The notes beneath the pieces were generated by a model. The model was not told where the DNA came from. It ran no database searches and was given only the letters and a program-made list of their open reading frames with translations. Positions 21,320 to 63,339 of a stretch of DNA of 64,000 bases are shown piece after piece. The translations under genes were made by a program, and so were the position numbers. Where the stretch lies: positions 1 through 64,000 of the IMG/VR virus record IMGVR_UViG_3300031974_004051; one strand, given 5' to 3'. How positions within the stretch are numbered: position 1 is the first letter of the stretch; the number at the start of each line of letters is the position of its first letter. The DNA is from a virus.

Positions 21320-22678
21320 TTATTTTAATTTTGACATCAAATCCTTCATTCTCTTGAATTGAGGACTTTCATACGCTTTTGTTTCTGAAAGTACTTCTTG
21401 AGATGAAGATGTTGTCGGGGTTGATGCGATCTTATCAACGACCGCTTCAGTAACATTTTTCTTAGAATCTAATTCACTCGCCATTGTTTTATAGGTTGAT
21501 TTAGATTCAGTTAAAGAAGTGACTGAGTCAAATCTTTTCAAAATGTTTAATTTCTCTTGACGAGTTGTTGAGTGTTCAGTGAACAATCTCGTAGCGTATG
21601 CTAAATTTGCATTGAATACAGCAACTTCATTAAGTTTGTCTTTAAATAACACCAACGCTTTCTTGTACTCTGCGTTTTGTTTCTTTAAAGTTTCAACTTC
21701 TTCGTTGATTGCACCCGCTTTGTATTTAGTCTTAGACTTAATACCAGCTCTGTTAGCTCCACCTTTGTCACCATGGACATTAGATTTTGTTCTAGCCGCT
21801 TCGTCAACCTCTTCCTCATGAGACTCTTCCTCTTCAGAGACTTCTTCTTCAGATACCTCTTCTTCGGAAACTTCTTCGGATACCTCTTCTTCAGAAACTT
21901 CTTCTTCTGAGACCTCTTCTTCTGAGACCTCTTCTTCAGATACTTCTTCTTCTGAGACTTCCTCCTCGGAAACTTCTTCTTCAGATACGTCGTCTAATTC
22001 GATTTCATATACAGTTTCATCACCTTCAGAAACTTCTTCTTCCATATCTTCTTCAGATACTTCTTCGTTAGTTTCTTCAGACACTTCTTCGTCGTAGCCA
22101 CCTTCGTGAGCTTCTTCGTCATGTCCTTCAGCGACTTCACCTTCTTCGTCATCTAATTTGATGATGTATTCGTCGTCTCCATCTTCGAGTTCAACGTTAT
22201 CACCGTCTCTCTTCACAACAATTCCGTCTTCTGGTTTCATTGATTTGAATACCTTAAGAACTTCGTCGTCAGATGCGTCGGTCATATCAAGGACATCCTC
22301 ATCATCCTCCATATCGTCTGCAGCTGGTAATTCTAAATCGTCTTCACCATCTATTGATAGTTCATCAGATTCTTCTTCACCACCTTCATCTTCTAAATCA
22401 GGATCTTCGTCGTCCGCTGGCTCGTCGTTTATCGAAGCTTCGTCATCATTTCCTTCCTCGTCATCAATTCCTTGTTCCGAGATTGGCATATCTTTTTCGT
22501 CTTCTGTAATAGGAGTTTCGTTACCCTCAACTACCTCTTCTTCCACTGTTTCTTTAAGCACTTCGTTTAGTTCTTCCTTCATAGTTGAAGCAAGTATACC
22601 TTTTGCGTTTGCTTTTACTGCCTCTTCAAGATCTTGTACTTGAAGCAATGCTTGTTCTAAAATGGATTTTTTGCTCAT
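21320..22678 (-). CDS. 22: Prohead core scaffold, T4 gp22-like, highly acidic
   Basis: 452 residues against about 270 in T4. The first 40 residues and the last 130 residues (coiled coil KKQNAEYKKALVLFKDKLNE, end RMKDLMSKLK) look like a gp22 core protein; between them lie about 250 residues dominated by Glu and Asp, with about ten tandem VSEEE units. The core scaffold directs gp23 assembly and is destroyed by gp21 in T4. Identity rests on position between gp21 and gp23 and on composition. Confidence 0.8.
   Translation of the reverse strand: MSKKSILEQALLQVQDLEEAVKANAKGILASTMKEELNEVLKETVEEEVVEGNETPITEDEKDMPISEQGIDDEEGNDDEASINDEPADDEDPDLEDEGGEEESDELSIDGEDDLELPAADDMEDDEDVLDMTDASDDEVLKVFKSMKPEDGIVVKRDGDNVELEDGDDEYIIKLDDEEGEVAEGHDEEAHEGGYDEEVSEETNEEVSEEDMEEEVSEGDETVYEIELDDVSEEEVSEEEVSEEEVSEEEVSEEEVSEEEVSEEEVSEEVSEEEVSEEEVSEEEESHEEEVDEAARTKSNVHGDKGGANRAGIKSKTKYKAGAINEEVETLKKQNAEYKKALVLFKDKLNEVAVFNANLAYATRLFTEHSTTRQEKLNILKRFDSVTSLTESKSTYKTMASELDSKKNVTEAVVDKIASTPTTSSSQEVLSETKAYESPQFKRMKDLMSKLK
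21825..21995. repeat. 15-bp tandem repeat encoding VSEEE units
   Basis: Successive 15-nt units with silent variation (GAA/GAG, TCT/TCC) encode VSEEE; one unit is shortened to VSEE. Variation at wobble positions suggests selection on the peptide. Confidence 0.75.
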
Positions 22679-33220: not shown

Positions 33221-33592
33221 TTAACCAATTGAAATGGTTCGTTGTGAGTTCTTCTTTTTTGTTTTTGGAATGGATATTTTTAATATACCATTTTGAACCT
33301 TTGCCGATATTTTCTTATCGTTCACATCTTCAGGTAAAGTGTAAGTCCTCTCGAATGAATCAATAAAAGTTTTCTCGTTATCGGATTTGGTGTAGGTGAT
33401 CTTTAGTAAGTCCTCCTCAACAATAATGTTAATATCATTTTTGGTAAGACCTGGTACAATGAAATCTAAAGTATATTCATTCTCATCTTGTTTTTTGTAC
33501 ACATTAACATAACCACTCTGTGTCTTATCTGTTCTTGAATCAAAGAACTCATCCACAAACTTTACAAATGGATCATTTCTAAATAAAATCAT
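33221..33592 (-). CDS. hsp20: Small heat-shock protein (Hsp20 / alpha-crystallin)
   Basis: 123 residues. The alpha-crystallin core reads YTLDFIVPGLTKNDINIIVE and FERTYTLPEDVNDKKISAKV, then QNGILKISIPK; the C-terminal IxI anchor is ISI in RTISIG. ATP-independent holdase. Hsp20 genes are common in marine T4-like phages. Here it is divergent from a ClpC-like unfoldase across a palindrome-rich control region. Confidence 0.95.
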   Translation of the reverse strand: MILFRNDPFVKFVDEFFDSRTDKTQSGYVNVYKKQDENEYTLDFIVPGLTKNDINIIVEEDLLKITYTKSDNEKTFIDSFERTYTLPEDVNDKKISAKVQNGILKISIPKTKKKNSQRTISIG

Positions 33593-33753: not shown

Positions 33754-35769
33754 ATGTCTGTAGAATTTTTTGAGGAGGGTACCCAACCCCAAAGTAAGAG
33801 AGGAAAGAAGGGGAGTAAAACTCCTGTTCTTGATAATTTTTCGAGAGATCTCACAACTATCGCGGCTGAAGGTGGTATCGACCCGATTATCGGAAGGGAT
33901 AAAGAAGTACTTCGAATTGCCCAAATTTTATCGAGAAAGAAGAAGAACAATGTCGTTATTGTTGGTGATGCGGGTGTTGGTAAATCGGCGTTAGTTGAAA
34001 AACTCGCCTTGTTAATTAGTGAAGGAAATTGTCCAACTAATTTACTTGATAAAAGAATTATGTCATTGGACTTGACATCCTTAGTTGCGGGTACCAAATA
34101 CAGAGGTCAGTTTGAGGAAAGGATTAAAGTTATTTTAAACGAATTACAAGACGCACCGAATGTGATAATTTTCATAGATGAGATTCATACTATGGTAGGT
34201 GCAGGAAATGCGTCTGGTTCTATGGACGCTGCGAATATATTAAAACCCGCCCTTGCAAGAGGTGAGATACAATGTATTGGGGCAACAACTTTTGATGAAT
34301 ACAAAAAGAATATTGAGAAAGATGCTGCACTTGTAAGAAGATTCCAAAAGATTATTCTACAAGAACCAACAATATCAGAAACTAAAGACATCTTAAAAAA
34401 TTTAAAAGAATCTTATGAAGATTTTCACAGAGTAGAATACAAAGAAGATGTAATTGAAACTATTGTGAACCTTTCTAAAAAGTATATTACAGATAAACAA
34501 TTTCCCGATAAAGCGATCGATATATTGGATGAGTTAGGTTCTGAGAAAAAGATCAACGTTAAAATTCCTGATATTATTGAAAAACTAAGAAAGGAATCTG
34601 AAAACGTCAAAGTTAGAAAGTTAGAGGTTGTAAAAACTCAAGACTATGAGAAGGCGGCGCAACTTAGAGACGAAGAAAGAAAAATTCTAAAAAAGTTAGA
34701 TAACGAAAAAGGTAAGTGGAATCAGGAACAAAAGGAAAATAAAAAACCTGTATATGTTGATGATGTGTATAACATGATAACAAACATGACGGGTGTTCCC
34801 ATAAACAAATTAGATACAAAAGAGACAAAATCTTTACTATCGTTAGAGAAAACCATATCTAAAAACGTGATCGGTCAAGATGAGGCAGTTTCAATCATCT
34901 CTAAATCTATAAGAAGAAATAGAGTTGGTGTTAGAGGTGTAAACAAACCAATTGGATCTTTTATGTTTTTAGGTTCTACGGGGGTTGGTAAAACACACTT
35001 AGCAAAGACTTTGGCTAATACTCTATTTGGTGATCCTGAAAAAATAATTAGGGTGGACATGAGTGAGTTTATGGAGAAACATAATGTATCCAAACTTATT
35101 GGATCCCCACCAGGATATGTTGGGTATGATGAAGGGGGACAACTCACCGAAAAAATAAAAAATAACCCATTCTCAGTAGTGTTATTCGATGAAGTTGAGA
35201 AGGCACATAAGGACGTGTTTAATATATTACTCCAAATTCTTGATGAGGGTCATCTAACAGATTCCTTTGGTAGAAAAGTAAATTTTACGAATACACTGAT
35301 TATCATGACATCCAATGTCGGAGCGAAAAAAGTTTCAGATTTTGGTGCGGGTGTTGGGTTCACTGATGGAACTAATAGAGATAAAGTAAAGGATTCTATT
35401 ATACAGAAGGCATTAAAACAACAGTTCTCACCTGAATTCTTAAATCGAATTGATGATATTATAGTCTTTAATAAATTAGATAAGAAGTCACTTAAAAAAA
35501 TCGTAAGTATAGAATTATCAAAACTAAACGATCGACTAAAAGATAGTGGTTATAAGATTACTTTCGATAATACAATCGTAAATGAAATATTAGAGAAGAA
35601 CTCTGAAGAAGATTATGGTGCAAGACCAATAAAAAGAATAATTCAGAATTTGTGTGAAGATTTTATCAGTGATAGTATTTTAACTGGAGATATAAACGAA
35701 GAAAGTGACGTTATATTAAAAATAAATGAGGGAAAAATGGAAATTTCCAAAAATATTCCCCTCATTTAA
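33754..35769 (+). CDS. clpC: ClpC-like AAA+ protein unfoldase without N-domain
   Basis: 671 residues, two AAA+ modules. First Walker A GDAGVGKS at 71-78, Walker B FIDEIH at 140-145; a short UVR-type middle motif ([19 protein letters not shown], about 297-315), which points to ClpC rather than ClpB; second Walker A GSTGVGKT at 407-414 and [11 protein letters not shown] at 475-485. The ClpP-docking loop tripeptide VGF is kept at 534-536. The usual N-terminal Clp_N repeats (about 145 residues) are missing. It may feed selected substrates to host ClpP. Confidence 0.93.
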
Positions 35770-40579: not shown

Positions 40580-40966
40580 GGGGGTGACTTGGAATTGATT
40601 GGCGTAGTCAATTATAGCAGGGCACGTAGTGAGATATTTCCTATCACTTAAATCTATGGAGATAATTTTTAAACGGAAACGTTTATTCACAGATGGAATT
40701 AATGGGTCTTGTATCTGTTGATTCTAAAGTAGCGGTAGCCTAAGGAAACCTCTACAACGGGTCGGGACATATAACCTAGGAACAGAAGTCTTACAAAGGT
40801 GGAGAAACGACTGAATCGGAAATCGAGTCGTACATCTATTGGTGATGGAGGATGTAAAAATTCAATCACATATTTCGGAATATTGAGAATCGATATTGTC
40901 CTAAACGTGTAGTCCTTTATGGTTGGGACGAGCAAGACGAGGGTTCGAAACCCTCCACCTCCACCA
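40580..40966 (+). ncRNA. ssrA: tmRNA (transfer-messenger RNA)
   Basis: 387 nt. The 5' GGGGGTG pairs with CACCTCC near the 3' end (one G-U) to form the acceptor stem; T arm GAGGGTTCGAAACCCTC; CCA is encoded at 40964-40966. The best tag frame runs 40675-40743: GNVYSQME at the start, SKVAVA then TAA at the end, 22 residues, preceded by TTTTTAAAC. It would rescue stalled ribosomes and tag products for proteolysis. The tag is longer than usual for Bacteroidota and ends AVA rather than LAA; the resume codon is my inference. Confidence 0.88.
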
Positions 40967-40969
40967 ATA

Positions 40970-40991
40970 GGGATCTTCGGATCCCTTTTTT
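40970..40991 (+). terminator. Terminator of tmRNA
   Basis: GGGATC-TTCG-GATCCC followed by T6, a classic UUCG tetraloop terminator 3 nt after the encoded CCA. Confidence 0.95.
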
Positions 40992-41000
40992 ATTATCAAT

Positions 41001-46398: not shown

Positions 46399-46767
46399 AT
46401 GAAAGTACATCCTTATGTATATGTTGGGTTGAATAGTCAAACTCAAGCAACATTTAAAAAGAGTAAACATAATAATATCAATCCCAATACTGTACTTAAA
46501 ATTGTGTCTCAAAAAACAGGTGTCACAGTAAATGAAATACTGTCAAAATCAAGAGTGAGAGAAATATCTGATGCGAGACAGATGTTTTGTTATATAATGA
46601 GGGAAAAGTATGGTATGAGATACTCTAAAATAGGTAAGATAATCGGTAGAGATCACGCAACAGCAATTCACTCTTGTAGATCACATAAAGACAAATGTGA
46701 TGTACTAAGAGAATATAGGGAATTAACTAAAGTAACGTGTGAACTCGTTAGAGAGTCTGAGTTCTAA
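46399..46767 (+). CDS. Stand-alone DnaA domain IV-like DNA-binding protein
   Basis: 122 residues. NTVLKIVSQKTGVTVNEILS, then REISDARQMFCYIMREKYGM, RYSKIGKIIGRDHATAIHSC follow DnaA domain IV, including the DHATAIHS version of the DnaA signature that reads DnaA boxes. There is no AAA+ module. It could bind phage or host origins, or act as a repressor or titrator of DnaA boxes. Shares a transcript with a lipoprotein. Confidence 0.85.
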   Translation: MKVHPYVYVGLNSQTQATFKKSKHNNINPNTVLKIVSQKTGVTVNEILSKSRVREISDARQMFCYIMREKYGMRYSKIGKIIGRDHATAIHSCRSHKDKCDVLREYRELTKVTCELVRESEF

Positions 46768-57945: not shown

Positions 57946-58089
57946 ATGTCAGTATTTGGTATGTCAGATGAGGAAAAGAAGAAAATCCTCGAAAAACACA
58001 AGACAGCAACAAAAAATCATTATACAAAACAAAATGATTTAAAAAAGGGTATTCAGGTACCTGAAAAAAAAGAGAAACCCTCAGAGTAA
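57946..58089 (+). CDS. Small Lys-rich protein, 47 aa
   Basis: MSVFGMSDEEKKKILEKHKT, then ATKNHYTKQNDLKKGIQVPE and KKEKPSE. The EEKKKILEKHK helix recurs in short phage proteins. It follows its neighbour by 7 nt, and its stop codon lies in the loop of the following terminator, so it looks real despite its size. Confidence 0.65.
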   Translation: MSVFGMSDEEKKKILEKHKTATKNHYTKQNDLKKGIQVPEKKEKPSE

Positions 58090-58103
58090 GAGGGTTTTTT
58101 TTA
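58075..58103. terminator. Bidirectional terminator at a gene-end overlap
   Basis: AAACCCTC (58075-58082) / GAGGGTTT (58090-58097) followed by T8; on the other side an A-rich tract serves the glycan operon. It lies inside the coding ends of both converging genes. Confidence 0.8.
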
Positions 58104-59172
58104 TGAATGTAAGTGCGGATTCAATAACATCGTCCATATCATAATATTTATATTCCGCCAACCTACCACCGAAATAAACATCCTTTTCTTTATCTGCCAA
58201 TTCTTTATACTTGTTGTATATTTCAGTATTTTCATCATCATTGACTGGATAATATGGTTCTGTTTCTTTTGCATTGTAGTCAATCGGAAATTCCCATGTT
58301 ACCCAAGTGGAATCTGATTCCACATTCTCAAAGTGTTTATGTTCTATAGTTCGTGTAAATGGAATTTCTTTATCGGTATAATTCATCATTACTACACCTT
58401 GGTAGTTATCAGTATCTATTTTTTTATGTTCAAATCGTGTTGTTTTATATTCTAACTCACCAAACTTATAATCAAAATATCTATCGATTGGACCTGTGTA
58501 AATAACTTTATTGTGATTTGGTAAATTGGAACCAAAATAATCAGTGTCTAATCTCACATCAATACCATCTAATAATTTTTCAAAGATTTGGGTGTACCCC
58601 CCAATTGGAATCCCTTGGTACTTATCATTGAAATAATTGTTATCATAAGTAAATCTTACAGGTAATCTTTTTATAATTTCTTTAGGTAAGTCCTTCGCAT
58701 CTTTTCTCCATTGTTTTTCTGTATATCCTTTGATTAGTTTTTCATATACGTCCGTACCAACAAGTTTGATTGCCTGTTCTTCTAAATTTTTTGGATTATC
58801 TATATGAGAACTTTGTTCTTCTATAATTTCTTTTACTTGTTGTGGATGTGACACACCCCACAACTTTGAGAATGTCCACATATTAAAAGGTAAGGAATAG
58901 ACCTCACCCCTGTAGTTAGCAACCGGTCTTAAAGTAAAATTATTAAATTCGACATATTGATTTATCCATTTCCAAACTTCTTCGTTCGATGTGTGAAAGA
59001 TATGGGGACCGTAATCATGTACATTAATACCATCTCTGTTAGAAGTATAACAATTACCACCAATATGATTTCTGTTTTCAATTACACAAACTTTCTTACC
59101 ACTATCTGTAAGTTCTCTTGCACATATTGAACCAAAAAATCCACTACCAACTATTAAGTAGTCATAAATCAT
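58081..59172 (-). CDS. glf: UDP-galactopyranose mutase
   Basis: 363 residues from ATG 59172 (ATG 59181 is also possible). Flavoenzyme that interconverts UDP-galactopyranose and UDP-galactofuranose. FAD-binding YLIVGSGFFGSICARELTDS, then VCVIENRNHIGGNCYT, DGINVHDYGPHIFHTSNEEV, the GYTEKQW motif and IPIGGYTQIFEKLL are all family landmarks, and YKYYDMDDVIESAL is near the C-terminus. Last gene of a five-gene glycan operon, so the glycan likely contains galactofuranose. Confidence 0.95.
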   Translation of the reverse strand: MIYDYLIVGSGFFGSICARELTDSGKKVCVIENRNHIGGNCYTSNRDGINVHDYGPHIFHTSNEEVWKWINQYVEFNNFTLRPVANYRGEVYSLPFNMWTFSKLWGVSHPQQVKEIIEEQSSHIDNPKNLEEQAIKLVGTDVYEKLIKGYTEKQWRKDAKDLPKEIIKRLPVRFTYDNNYFNDKYQGIPIGGYTQIFEKLLDGIDVRLDTDYFGSNLPNHNKVIYTGPIDRYFDYKFGELEYKTTRFEHKKIDTDNYQGVVMMNYTDKEIPFTRTIEHKHFENVESDSTWVTWEFPIDYNAKETEPYYPVNDDENTEIYNKYKELADKEKDVYFGGRLAEYKYYDMDDVIESALTFIKKTLLL

Positions 59173-60514
59173 AGATCCCATAAATTTGGAAAAGACATTT
59201 TTCAAAATCTAAACACGCATGAGGGTAGACCCCCACACTAACTAATGAATGTATTTTTTGGTAGAACTCAATCGGATGTTTCTTTATTAACCTTCTACTG
59301 ATGATGTGTTGTGCCCCAGGTACATTGTAGGATGGGAAACTAATACTAATACCCATAGTTTCACCAAAAGATCTCATTTCATTATCAATACCCTCATACT
59401 CCATATTATATCTACTTATATTCCCCAATGGTAAAAATTCTTGTTTAAAATCAAATTTATTTATTTGATCAACCACATTATGACAATGGTCAAAGGGGTT
59501 TCCTTGTACAAATGCCATGTAATTAGGTAAATTATCGTAGTTATCTATAATATATGTGAGAAATGTATGTGTTTCTCTCCCCACATTTGGTAGGTTGTGT
59601 TCAAAATGATCACTATCAGATTCATTTTTATTATACACTATATGATCGTGTTTTAAGTATGCTGTCCAACTTATATCCTCATTGTATTTCGCAACAATGA
59701 CTTTTAAATTTTTGTCACTCGTAAATAAATCGATGTATTCTCTCCACCCACATTGAATCAAATTGTATTTCTCAGGATCTCTAAGGTATAGAAAATCAAA
59801 CATCTTTTCGTCACTACCTACGTATCCGTTATTGATCGACTGATTAACAACATCTTCAAATTCCACACAAACTTTTTCTACACAACTTTTAGGTACAAAT
59901 ACAGAACCCCCCTGTATGTACCTCATTTGAGATAATGCGTGTTGTTCGTAATATTCCTCACCAACCCTAACATAGGGATGGTGACAAAAGAAAGTTACTT
60001 TCTTATTATCTAATTCATTAATTTTTTGAGTATCTGGCCAACTGATACCTAATTCAGGTTTATCATTTCTGAGTACACCCGCGTCTGCCCATACAAATAA
60101 ATCAGTATTAAATAGATTTCTTTTATGTGCATCTAAAATGTAATATAATTTGGAAAACATAACCACATTGTAAAGTGGTTTAGTCATCTCAGGGACTTGG
60201 AATTGAATCTTTGATTTGAATTCTTCGCTCGACATTAGAGTATTAAGAGGGTTGAAGAATTTTTTATATCCTAAAATATTCTCTAAAGGTTCAATCACAA
60301 TAATTGTCTTCTCTAAATCGGGGTCAACTTCTTTTCTAAATTCAATAATTTGTTTTTTGAATTTATCTTCGGTATAGATAACCATGTTAGTATCTAAAAA
60401 CAATATGTTCCTCATCCACATAAGATAAGTGTGGTAAGACATAGTGAAATTATCCCAATTATCTCTACCAATATCAAATATTGCCGTTACAATTGTTGTG
60501 TTTTTTATATCCAT
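59162..60514 (-). CDS. HtrL/WlaTC-like glycosyltransferase fused to a DUF3431-like domain
   Basis: 450 residues from ATG 60514. The N-terminal 280 residues (TTIVTAIFDIGRDNWDNFTM, SKLYYILDAHKRNLFNTDLF, VWADAGVLRN, ... GSVFVPKSC) resemble HtrL/YibB/WlaTC sugar-transfer proteins. The last 150 residues (THTFLTYIIDNYDNLPNYMA, FVQGNPFDHCHN) match DUF3431, another glycan-linked domain. The fusion could couple two steps. Overlaps glf by 11 bp. Confidence 0.75.
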   Translation of the reverse strand: MDIKNTTIVTAIFDIGRDNWDNFTMSYHTYLMWMRNILFLDTNMVIYTEDKFKKQIIEFRKEVDPDLEKTIIVIEPLENILGYKKFFNPLNTLMSSEEFKSKIQFQVPEMTKPLYNVVMFSKLYYILDAHKRNLFNTDLFVWADAGVLRNDKPELGISWPDTQKINELDNKKVTFFCHHPYVRVGEEYYEQHALSQMRYIQGGSVFVPKSCVEKVCVEFEDVVNQSINNGYVGSDEKMFDFLYLRDPEKYNLIQCGWREYIDLFTSDKNLKVIVAKYNEDISWTAYLKHDHIVYNKNESDSDHFEHNLPNVGRETHTFLTYIIDNYDNLPNYMAFVQGNPFDHCHNVVDQINKFDFKQEFLPLGNISRYNMEYEGIDNEMRSFGETMGISISFPSYNVPGAQHIISRRLIKKHPIEFYQKIHSLVSVGVYPHACLDFEKCLFQIYGIYDL

Positions 60515-61266
60515 GCCCAATCAACCACTATATTCTTATGCCAAATTCTATTGTTTTCAAAATCGAACAGATTTGATGTATCTTCCGATGTTATCAGACT
60601 ACTAATTTTCATACCATGTAAATTAAGTACAGTCGGTACGAAACCCTCACCATACCCATGATAACCCTCATTGTTTAACTCAACAAGTTTCTTCATCGCT
60701 CGATTAGAATATCGGACTGTTGGGAAAAAGGATCCAAACCACTCAGTGACCTCACTCGGTAATGTGTCACCATCACCAGGAAACCTCTCTAACCACATGT
60801 GTGAAGATGTTGTTCTACCATCAATAACAGGGACATTTGGTTGACTCTCAACACCAGGTTTTTTAAAAACAAAATAAGATATGAAATCTGAATCATCCTC
60901 ATCAGTTTGTGACAAAAACTGATTCCAATCATCTATCCTAACATCATCGTCAAAAAACCAATAGTATTCATAATTAGGATTCGATAAATAAAAATTTATC
61001 ATTCTTAAATGTGCGTGGAACCATATGATGTTTCGATTACCTTGACTATTCCAATAATGTTTTTTACTAACCTCGTGTGGGAAGTTTAAATTATCCCTAA
61101 CATCTTTTTCAGTGTATGTAAAACCCTTCTCAAATGATTGGTCTCTTGTGATGTCGATAATTAAATCTTTATCATAACCCTCTTTAGTAATTAATGGTAA
61201 CCATTCCTCATCCAATTTATTGTGTTGGTGAGAAACTGTACACATACAAGCAATTCTTTTATTCAT
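60505..61266 (-). CDS. Glycosyltransferase-like protein with DDD motif
   Basis: 253 residues. RIACMCTVSHQHNKLDEEWL opening, NYEYYWFFDDDVRIDDWNQF with the DDD metal motif of a GT-A fold, and TEWFGSFFPTVRYSNRAMKK, GYHGYGEGFVPTVLNLHGMK on the acceptor side. It resembles unassigned GT-A proteins in phage and eukaryote-virus glycan loci. Overlaps neighbours by 10 and 8 bp. Confidence 0.7.
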   Translation of the reverse strand: MNKRIACMCTVSHQHNKLDEEWLPLITKEGYDKDLIIDITRDQSFEKGFTYTEKDVRDNLNFPHEVSKKHYWNSQGNRNIIWFHAHLRMINFYLSNPNYEYYWFFDDDVRIDDWNQFLSQTDEDDSDFISYFVFKKPGVESQPNVPVIDGRTTSSHMWLERFPGDGDTLPSEVTEWFGSFFPTVRYSNRAMKKLVELNNEGYHGYGEGFVPTVLNLHGMKISSLITSEDTSNLFDFENNRIWHKNIVVDWAWI

Positions 61267-62086
61267 ATTCTTTAGTCAAAATTTCTTTCCATTCTTCAAT
61301 CCTATTGAATTGGTGAACCATACAGTATTTATTATTTGTTCTACTATTATAGACACAACCATCCTCTTTTAATTCGGGAATTCCATATCCTTTGTTGAGA
61401 ATGTTGTTTTTCATTCCCCAACCCTCAAAAAATTGTGTTGGTCCTGATGTCGCACAATGCATCGCCCAACCCTCATCCAAGTCAAAAATTCTTAAATTTT
61501 CAATCCAATTGTCTTTTACTAAAACAATTAGTGCCGCTTGATCTTTTATGTTGTGACCGTCTTCACTATTCTCACACATTTCATACATTTTATCATATAA
61601 TTTGATAAATGCGTCTTTTTTACCCGCCATAATTCCCGAACATACAATTTCAGTTTCCATACAAGAGTTAACTTCATTTGGGAATGTTTTTCTTAGTACA
61701 TCTGCATTCCACGGCTCTTCCCTAACTAAAATACCTTCTCTACTAAACCAAATGTCGTAGTTATCGGTATCTAATTTTTCAAAAGGGTCTGAATGAAAGA
61801 GAACATCGAACACATCTGTTGCCAAAAATAAATCAGCGTCGTAGGACTCAATGAAATTTTTGGTGTGTATTAATCTCTGATGATTTATTCTCCAAGTGTC
61901 GGTCTCAGTTACCTCAACATAATCAATATTAAGATCGGATAAAACCTGTCTATCATCATCGGTAGCATTGGCGGCGATGAGTACAATGTCAGCATCGGAG
62001 TGTTTTCTAAAACTCTCAACCCACCATTTAATTTTACCTTTGTGGTCGGATATATTATTACAAAATCCTGTTAATACTTTTTTCAT
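61259..62086 (-). CDS. Glycosyltransferase-like protein (GT-A type)
   Basis: 275 residues from ATG 62086, which overlaps the preceding stop as ATGA; a TTG at 62113 is less likely. KKVLTGFCNNISDHKGKIKW, then DADLFLATDVFDVLFHSDPF with a D-x-x-D motif in the DxD position, VCSGIMAGKKDAFIKLYDKM, IKDQAALIVLVKDNWIENLR. Layout like GT-A enzymes transferring hexoses. Donor unknown. Confidence 0.72.
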   Translation of the reverse strand: MKKVLTGFCNNISDHKGKIKWWVESFRKHSDADIVLIAANATDDDRQVLSDLNIDYVEVTETDTWRINHQRLIHTKNFIESYDADLFLATDVFDVLFHSDPFEKLDTDNYDIWFSREGILVREEPWNADVLRKTFPNEVNSCMETEIVCSGIMAGKKDAFIKLYDKMYEMCENSEDGHNIKDQAALIVLVKDNWIENLRIFDLDEGWAMHCATSGPTQFFEGWGMKNNILNKGYGIPELKEDGCVYNSRTNNKYCMVHQFNRIEEWKEILTKEYE

Positions 62087-63339
62087 AGTTGTCCTTCTAA
62101 TTTTTCTAACCAACCATTAGTCTTTGAATGTGGCCAAACAATCCACTTGGTTGGTTTCTCCTCTACTTGGAACTCTCTCCAAATTTTTATAAAATCATCT
62201 TTAGTAGATAAGTATCCTTTTATTTGTGCTTCATTAGCGTCAGTTCTATTAATTGTTTCACCTCTATCATTTTCGAATATCACCGCCCAAAAATCATAGT
62301 CTTCATCCTCTTTTAGTCCTCCTCTGTGTAAGTCAATACAGTGTTTAAATATGGACATGAATGATTGTTCCAATTCCTCACCATATAACGGTGGGTTTGG
62401 TGCAAAGTTATTATCTAACGTATATTTCTGAACCGCCCTCTTTTTAAATGATACCCCCGCATATCTTTCATAATCCTCTAAAGTTCTAACAGTACCAAAA
62501 TCGTAAATACCAAAATCAATATCTTTTTCAAGACCATCCATTTCAAATAGTTTTCTATTTCTTAAATGTGAATCGGTATTTTTTACGTGCCATGATTTAT
62601 CGTCATCCCATTGTTTTGTTCTACCCTTTCTTGTGTATTCGTGCCACGCAATAATTTTATGTGGGTGGAAAAGATCATAACCGTGGGTATAAGCTCTAAC
62701 CGCGATACTAATCTCCTCACCATGAAAATAATATTCAGGATCATGAGGAACCTCCACCACAAAAGAACCTAAACTAAACGTAAAATGGGCAGAATAAAAC
62801 CTTGCGGGTATTGGTTCGGTACGAGTTTCCCAATCAGGTATTGTTGCTGGTAGAAAGAATATAGCACCTTCAGGAATAAATCTATCAAAGTTCATTAACC
62901 ACGGAACTTGAGTTCTCCCCTTAGGGTCGGTTTCAGGATTATATGAAGAAATATAAGAAGTCAGTAATGGTTTTTCATGTCCCTTTGTTCTTAAATCCTC
63001 TAACATGTTTATCAACTCGGTATCCCAACCCTCAATAAATCTATGATGTGAATCTAATTGAAGTGTGTATTGTTCACCATCATACTGTTGTTGTAGGGTA
63101 TTTCTCGCCCAACAAGCACCTTTTGATTCTGTGTAATCAACATCGATTATTTTAAACCTTGAATCGTCCTTAAACTCATCAAGATTATCCCATTCGTCAT
63201 CTTTTGAATGTTGCCAACAAATACTAAACACAAGGTTATCAGGATTATCAGACTTTTCAATACAATCACGTAGTGTGGGGATTAACTCAGGGTCTCTATA
63301 AGACGCTATCTGAATAAATATTTTTTTGTTTTCTTCCAT
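62083..63339 (-). CDS. GlcNAc-transferase-like enzyme with C-terminal extension
   Basis: 418 residues. The first 270 match the glycosyltransferase (GlcNAc) family: KIFIQIASYRDPELIPTLRD, SKGACWARNTLQQQYDGEQY, TLQLDSHHRFIEGWD, FHGEEISIAVRAYTHGYDLF and HEYTRKGR. Relatives use UDP-GlcNAc on protein or glycan acceptors. The last 130 residues hold another small domain (FWAVIFENDRGETINRTDAN). First gene of the glycan operon. Confidence 0.85.
   Translation of the reverse strand: MEENKKIFIQIASYRDPELIPTLRDCIEKSDNPDNLVFSICWQHSKDDEWDNLDEFKDDSRFKIIDVDYTESKGACWARNTLQQQYDGEQYTLQLDSHHRFIEGWDTELINMLEDLRTKGHEKPLLTSYISSYNPETDPKGRTQVPWLMNFDRFIPEGAIFFLPATIPDWETRTEPIPARFYSAHFTFSLGSFVVEVPHDPEYYFHGEEISIAVRAYTHGYDLFHPHKIIAWHEYTRKGRTKQWDDDKSWHVKNTDSHLRNRKLFEMDGLEKDIDFGIYDFGTVRTLEDYERYAGVSFKKRAVQKYTLDNNFAPNPPLYGEELEQSFMSIFKHCIDLHRGGLKEDEDYDFWAVIFENDRGETINRTDANEAQIKGYLSTKDDFIKIWREFQVEEKPTKWIVWPHSKTNGWLEKLEGQL

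Follow-up and report, generated by a model that had tools for sequence, protein, structure and literature searches.

A phage tmRNA with a conserved 22-residue tag, encoded near clpC, suggests a possible phage pathway for the rescue and disposal of stalled proteins

Phage tmRNAs have been listed for years, with no clear role. Examples are reported from Bxz1-group mycobacteriophages, Bacillus phage G, the methylophage Melnitz and huge phages, and the co-occurrence of tmRNA and SmpB in huge phages has already been noted (PMC4131195, PMC9004378, PMC7162821). The tmRNA locus described here raises the question of what peptide it appends to stalled products, and which protease, if any, that peptide addresses. 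It lies in a window of 64 kb (the whole stretch of DNA that was analysed), which belongs to a linear IMG/VR virus record of 66 kb. T4-type structural genes are present in the window (Gp23 capsid, S77 prohead protease and T4-type terminase), and by terminase its nearest isolates belong to the immuto group of Flavobacterium phages, at 28% identity.

Several other genes of the window are worth recording. A 122-aa stand-alone DnaA domain IV (46399–46767; Bac_DnaA_C, E 1e-20), present without the remainder of DnaA, is a possible origin-binding or decoy protein. A UDP-galactopyranose mutase (GLF, E 2e-77) adjoins a series of glycosyltransferase-like genes at 58081–63339, a group that possibly serves sugar decoration. 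Two repetitive ORFs (1878–2822 and 21320–22678) display repeats with NHPNAISDGDEKGKGDNN and a long acidic tract, EEVSEEEVSEEE; the first has no match in Pfam.

The tmRNA gene and its resume codon

The gene (ssrA; 40580–40966, plus strand) specifies a one-piece tmRNA with an encoded CCA and matches Rfam RF00023 over its full length (model positions 1–374, E 2.6e-26), scoring 72.7 bits where the gathering score is 47 bits. ARAGORN also calls a tmRNA gene at these positions, and homologues are found at five further loci (L123, L124, L132, L144 and L208). The acceptor stem, read from the sequence as GGGGGUG...CACCUCCACCA, carries the G3·U70 alanine identity pair and the 3′ CCA, and the 5′ end lies 8 bases past the stop of an ORF. 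Pseudoknot 1 (40628–40663, plus strand), upstream of the tag, is formed by AGUGA/UCACU and AUUUCC/GGAGAU. Over 16 phage tmRNAs, 81% of its cells are paired, double changes are seen in 9 of 11 pairs, both helices showing compensatory changes, and the covariation score is 0.427 compared with 0.200 after shuffling (0/500). Directly 3′ of the CCA stands a rho-independent terminator (40969–40993, plus strand; AGGGATC TTCG GATCCCT and a T run), the single one found in the scanned region against 0.8 expected by chance. Judged on these sequence features, the locus probably encodes a working phage tmRNA.

Three independent lines of evidence converge on the point at which translation would resume. The resume-codon column of the covariance model (GCa consensus) falls on GGA 40675–40677 with the top posterior probability. 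The five bases 5′ of this codon (UAAAC|GGA) fit the UA-N3 ruler, and the frame is open to a UAA; in the published ruler, U85-A86-N3, the resume codon stands four bases past A86 in UAGUC (PMC2481249). The UAAAC element (40670–40674, plus strand), assigned from sequence, ruler and Bacteroidota identity, is thus placed as the frame-setting equivalent of U85-A86. Finally, in 101 host-type tmRNAs from Bacteroidota, chiefly Flavobacteriia, ..TAAAC|GGC is followed by the nine-residue GENNYALAA; these loci were fetched by a pattern requiring GENNYAL and therefore bear on homology of the site, not on the distribution of host tag lengths. A joint alignment of phage and Bacteroidota tmRNAs agrees base for base through ..TAAAC|GG and diverges afterwards. 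With all three agreeing on GGA 40675 as the resume codon, the predicted tag is GNVYSQMELMGLVSVDSKVAVA, 22 residues long, encoded with its TAA at 40675–40743 (plus strand; alignment and translation). An earlier note on this DNA had proposed a phage tmRNA with a 22-residue tag at these positions, and both the RF00023 match and the translation recover exactly that frame. The covariance-model alignment that it called for has been run, and the outcome that it regarded as contrary, an aligned resume codon leading to a short ALAA-type tag, was looked for; the long frame survived.

A family of long tags conserved as peptides

The window tag belongs to a family of at least 127 IMG/VR loci of uncultured phages (52 distinct tag DNAs) with tags of 20–22 residues of the form G[ND]V[LY]xKMxxxGL[IV]....VxVA. 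A DNA pattern confined to the first seven tag codons retrieved at least 119 loci. Profiles of both tmRNA ends (nhmmer) added more divergent phage tmRNAs, the aligned ones having 20–23-residue tags (that of L095 belongs to another family of long tags); most relatives escaped a strict pattern written for the 5′ end of the tmRNA. Close relatives keep the tag, with synonymous changes and N2D. Family tags end in VxVA, VVA, VNA or VAA, and the window tag in AVA, not in LAA or a close variant; its 22 residues, double what is usual in bacteria, exceed the roughly 8–12 of a canonical ssrA degradation tag. The commonest bacterial tag length is given as 10 in the 2025 tmRNA database paper (PMC11915505), the available text of which does not mention a class of long phage tags.

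Selection on the peptide was assessed on codons 8 to the end, outside the search pattern, using unique tag DNAs of the 21-residue (35 sequences) and 22-residue (16 sequences) classes. Single-base codon differences are synonymous in 64% of cases in the tag frame of the 21-residue class, compared with 31% and 4% when the frame is shifted, and in 70% against 25% and 2% in the 22-residue class. In the former class G11 is present in 35 of 35 sequences through four codons, L12 in 34 of 35, and the final residue is alanine in 34 and serine in one. Codon-position entropies match the coding expectation within the tag, with little such period 3′ of the stop. Because synonymous variation is confined to the tag frame and is not a property of the other two, the peptide is under purifying selection; judged from these substitutions, it is selected along its whole length. 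The Carsonella tag was found by the same approach, as the most conserved reading frame (PMC4131195).

ARAGORN reports the tag of the window as VDSKVAVA, which is rejected here as an annotation error: it starts in the middle of the tag, the upstream signal is absent there and the codons preceding it are conserved. The reading of the long frame as an artefact, with this octapeptide or a product of another frame as the genuine tag, is highly improbable; it is supported by the program's output and contradicted by the covariance model, the ruler and the host alignment, as well as by frame-specific synonymous substitution with conservation of residues 1–14. The same program shortens the tag of another locus, L001, for which it gives AKLQAVGLIRTEEVTVA where direct translation of the aligned frame reads GETIAKLQAVGLIRTEEVTVA. 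Automatic tmRNA annotation thus truncates such long tags and hides the pattern.

Searches beyond the family gave little. A tblastn search of the tag against 50,697 GenBank phage records returned no match, short queries being a weak test; blastn of the tmRNA gave matches confined to the 3′ end in two crAss-like tmRNAs; and 395 genomes belonging to the host-like class lack the tag DNA pattern specific to the family. Comparison of the tag with the window's own proteins, for mimicry, gave short chance matches only.

Long tags of other kinds occur among phages. A second, unrelated family (L023, L051, L095, L107 and L113) has tags of 23–24 residues with TFEDAM.FV or similar and an AA end; in L095, L107 and L113 neither ClpC of the window kind nor ClpP was found. 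ARAGORN gives phage tags of 28–32 residues at L019, L047 and L103, at L064 and at L080, some of these genes being permuted, and the crAss-like phage cr272_1 has a permuted tmRNA, annotated as tmRNA in its record, with the tag GNINVVDYTGLQEAA. About a quarter of the distinct phage tags in this pattern-based sample have at least 18 residues. The description of the window tag as long and divergent stands, with the correction that long tags have precedents in the Mollicutes and in several other phage tmRNAs. What is new here is the conserved family of long phage tags; phage tmRNAs, and a switch of protease with a long tag in Mollicutes, were already known. Neither this tag family nor a link to ClpC lacking its N-domain is described in the available excerpts of PMC4131195, PMC9004378 and PMC7162821.

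Phage ClpC and its association with the tag

The candidate partner of the tag is a ClpC-type Clp/Hsp100 ATPase of 671 aa (33754–35769, plus strand), identified by Pfam, alignment and docking loop. The Pfam families listed for it are AAA_2, AAA_lid_9 and ClpB_D2-small, with no Clp_N match among them, and its alignment to Staphylococcus aureus ClpC begins at residue 152. It retains the two AAA modules, a short middle region of the ClpC type and the VGF ClpP-docking tripeptide. Two AAA modules, a short middle domain and a VGF-type docking loop are shared with ClpC of Bacillus subtilis, S. aureus and Flavobacteriia, from which the phage protein differs in having no N-terminal Clp_N domain; its identity to host ClpC is 53–54%. 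The first ATPase domain lies 42–55 residues past the first Met in all 55 phage relatives where it could be placed, whereas in the one intact Flavobacterium ClpC that was read (846 aa) it is found at 209, with about 165 more residues preceding it. Of the 59 ClpCs read (the Flavobacterium host protein included), 56 have VGF or IGF after the sensor region, a count that leaves out 22 phage and three host loci whose ORF was not recovered. ClpC without an N-domain would be expected to choose its substrates without MecA-type adaptors, which fits direct reading of a tag. An Hsp20 small heat-shock protein gene (33221–33592, minus strand; PF00011, E 7e-20) adjoins clpC in divergent orientation and is possibly part, with clpC, of a small protein-quality set close to the tmRNA.

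The association was examined in 20 family records no shorter than 100 kb, with eight records of phages with short-tag tmRNAs for comparison. ClpC is encoded in all 20 of the former (55–73% identity to the window protein) and in none of the latter. In 19 of the 20, L025 included and L204 excepted, clpC is on the same strand as the tmRNA and 1.1–9.6 kb upstream of it. Conversely, where a ClpC-bearing relative extends far enough downstream of clpC, a tmRNA is usually present, in some subgroups 14–26 kb away; none was seen in the record of one such relative, L147. ClpP is encoded in 14 of the 20 records, and one representative aligns to solved ClpPs with the Ser, His and Asp equivalents in place; SmpB is encoded in seven, about 1 kb from the tmRNA in five. 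Neither was found in the window's own 66-kb record, a fragment. The earlier note had suggested that the altered tag could address a different protease, such as a phage ClpC-like protein with host ClpP, or could protect the tagged products. A role for phage ClpC gains circumstantial support from its constant presence, its retained docking tripeptide and its missing N-domain; host ClpP is not required, since most of the records encode ClpP themselves.

Two huge phages outside the family, LR756504 (636 kb) and LR756508 (484 kb), combine a ClpC-like ATPase with long tags, DNVNSFEQSILNELFAPVEMAVAA of about 24 residues in the former and one of about 32 in the latter, both frames being read by the UA-N3 ruler; ARAGORN gives a different tag for LR756508 and misses the tmRNA of LR756504. 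Two further huge phages of about 640 kb, LR756502 and LR745206, carry the same kind of ClpC and at least two ClpPs, with no tmRNA above the Rfam cut-off. Some phages with long tags lack ClpC (L107, L113, L011 and L096). As the tag and ClpC follow the same phage phylogeny, their association is confounded by shared ancestry in one phage lineage and may reflect co-inheritance without interaction.

Possible roles of the tag

The preferred reading, held to be narrowly probable and drawn by analogy with the Mollicutes tag and Lon, is that the long tag has changed from a degron for host ClpXP into one for phage ClpC and ClpP. During infection SmpB, phage-encoded in some relatives and otherwise supplied by the host, would enter stalled ribosomes together with alanylated tmRNA; the ribosomes would resume at GGA 40675 and append (A)GNVYSQMELMGLVSVDSKVAVA. 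The tag would act as a two-part degron, a small-hydrophobic C-terminal VxVA combined with the conserved middle M...GL[IV], which is missing from the nine-residue host tag. Phage ClpC would read it preferentially and feed ClpP, phage-encoded in most relatives and otherwise the host's, so that failed products would be removed without recourse to host ClpXP or the adaptors that serve it. Pointing this way are the selection on the middle of the tag, the linkage of the genes, the lost ClpC N-domain and the two ClpC-bearing huge phages with long tags. Single phage ancestry, long tags without ClpC, the two huge phages and the L147 record with ClpC but no tmRNA, and the window record, a fragment, with neither ClpP nor SmpB point against it.

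The proposed system can be set beside two known ones. With the one-piece tmRNA of Bacteroidota the phage gene shares its form, the TAAAC|GG entry to the tag, the first-encoded G and pseudoknot 1 5′ of the tag, whereas the host tag has 9 residues and an LAA end, and the phage tags have 20–22, a VxVA end and the conserved M...GL[IV] middle. The closest functional precedent is that of Mollicutes, in which the tag is likewise longer and changed at its end, and the protease has switched: Lon is the protease that recognizes the extended tag (Gur and Sauer 2008; Ge and Karzai 2009, cited via PMC9382460). That system is cellular, with a single-chain protease and an NYAFA end, while the one described here is phage-encoded and its candidate protease, ClpC with ClpP, is proposed from gene association. 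The re-targeting would resemble the Mollicutes switch, with ClpC taking the place of Lon.

ClpXP can use the LVA variant of the E. coli tag, and the AVA end is similar to it. Host ClpXP might accept AVA, which counts against a switch of degron. On a rival reading, the tag could be real and long and still an ordinary degron for host ClpXP, with VAVA replacing LAA, the extra residues serving accessibility or an adaptor, and ClpC lying nearby for other reasons. All family tags end in a small residue, the variants LVA and AAV of the E. coli tag are known (PMC9382460), and huge phages have ClpC without tmRNA; however, the G11-L12 middle is as conserved as the end, although a C-terminal ClpX signal needs no such middle, the host tag has 9 residues, and clpC and the tmRNA are co-located. 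We regard this reading as unlikely, though it deserves weight.

Distinctly less likely is a protective tag, by which the phage tmRNA would compete with that of the host and let phage products escape ClpXP, ribosome rescue alone being what matters. Such a role would suit an end unlike the host LAA, and plaques of lambda-P22 hybrids require ribosome release rather than the correct tag (PMC2481249); but a purely protective tag needs little sequence, and here 14–15 codons outside the search pattern show strong purifying selection, and a gene for an unfoldase with a ClpP-docking loop lies close by. The Hsp20 gene next to clpC, and the absence of ClpP from the window record and from 6/20 others, would agree with phage ClpC and Hsp20 acting without ClpP as an unfoldase or disaggregase on tagged chains, the tag then serving for recognition and not as a death signal. 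Nearly all ClpCs read keep the ClpP-docking tripeptide and most long records have ClpP, which makes this last alternative more doubtful again.

Returning to the re-targeted degron, a conserved phage-specific tag, often accompanied by SmpB, ClpC and ClpP, gives phage tmRNAs a concrete, testable role as part of a dedicated degron and protease. With the Mollicutes tag and Lon as the first, it would be the second natural case of a joint change of tag and protease, and it could supply orthogonal degron–protease pairs. The broader proposal is that these phages have a complete private pathway, orthogonal to host SmpB-tmRNA-ClpXP, in which SmpB and a tmRNA whose long tag has co-evolved are joined by ClpP and a ClpC that needs no adaptor; it is considered possible rather than probable. 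If true, it would provide these phages with ribosome rescue and selective protein disposal independent of host quality control.
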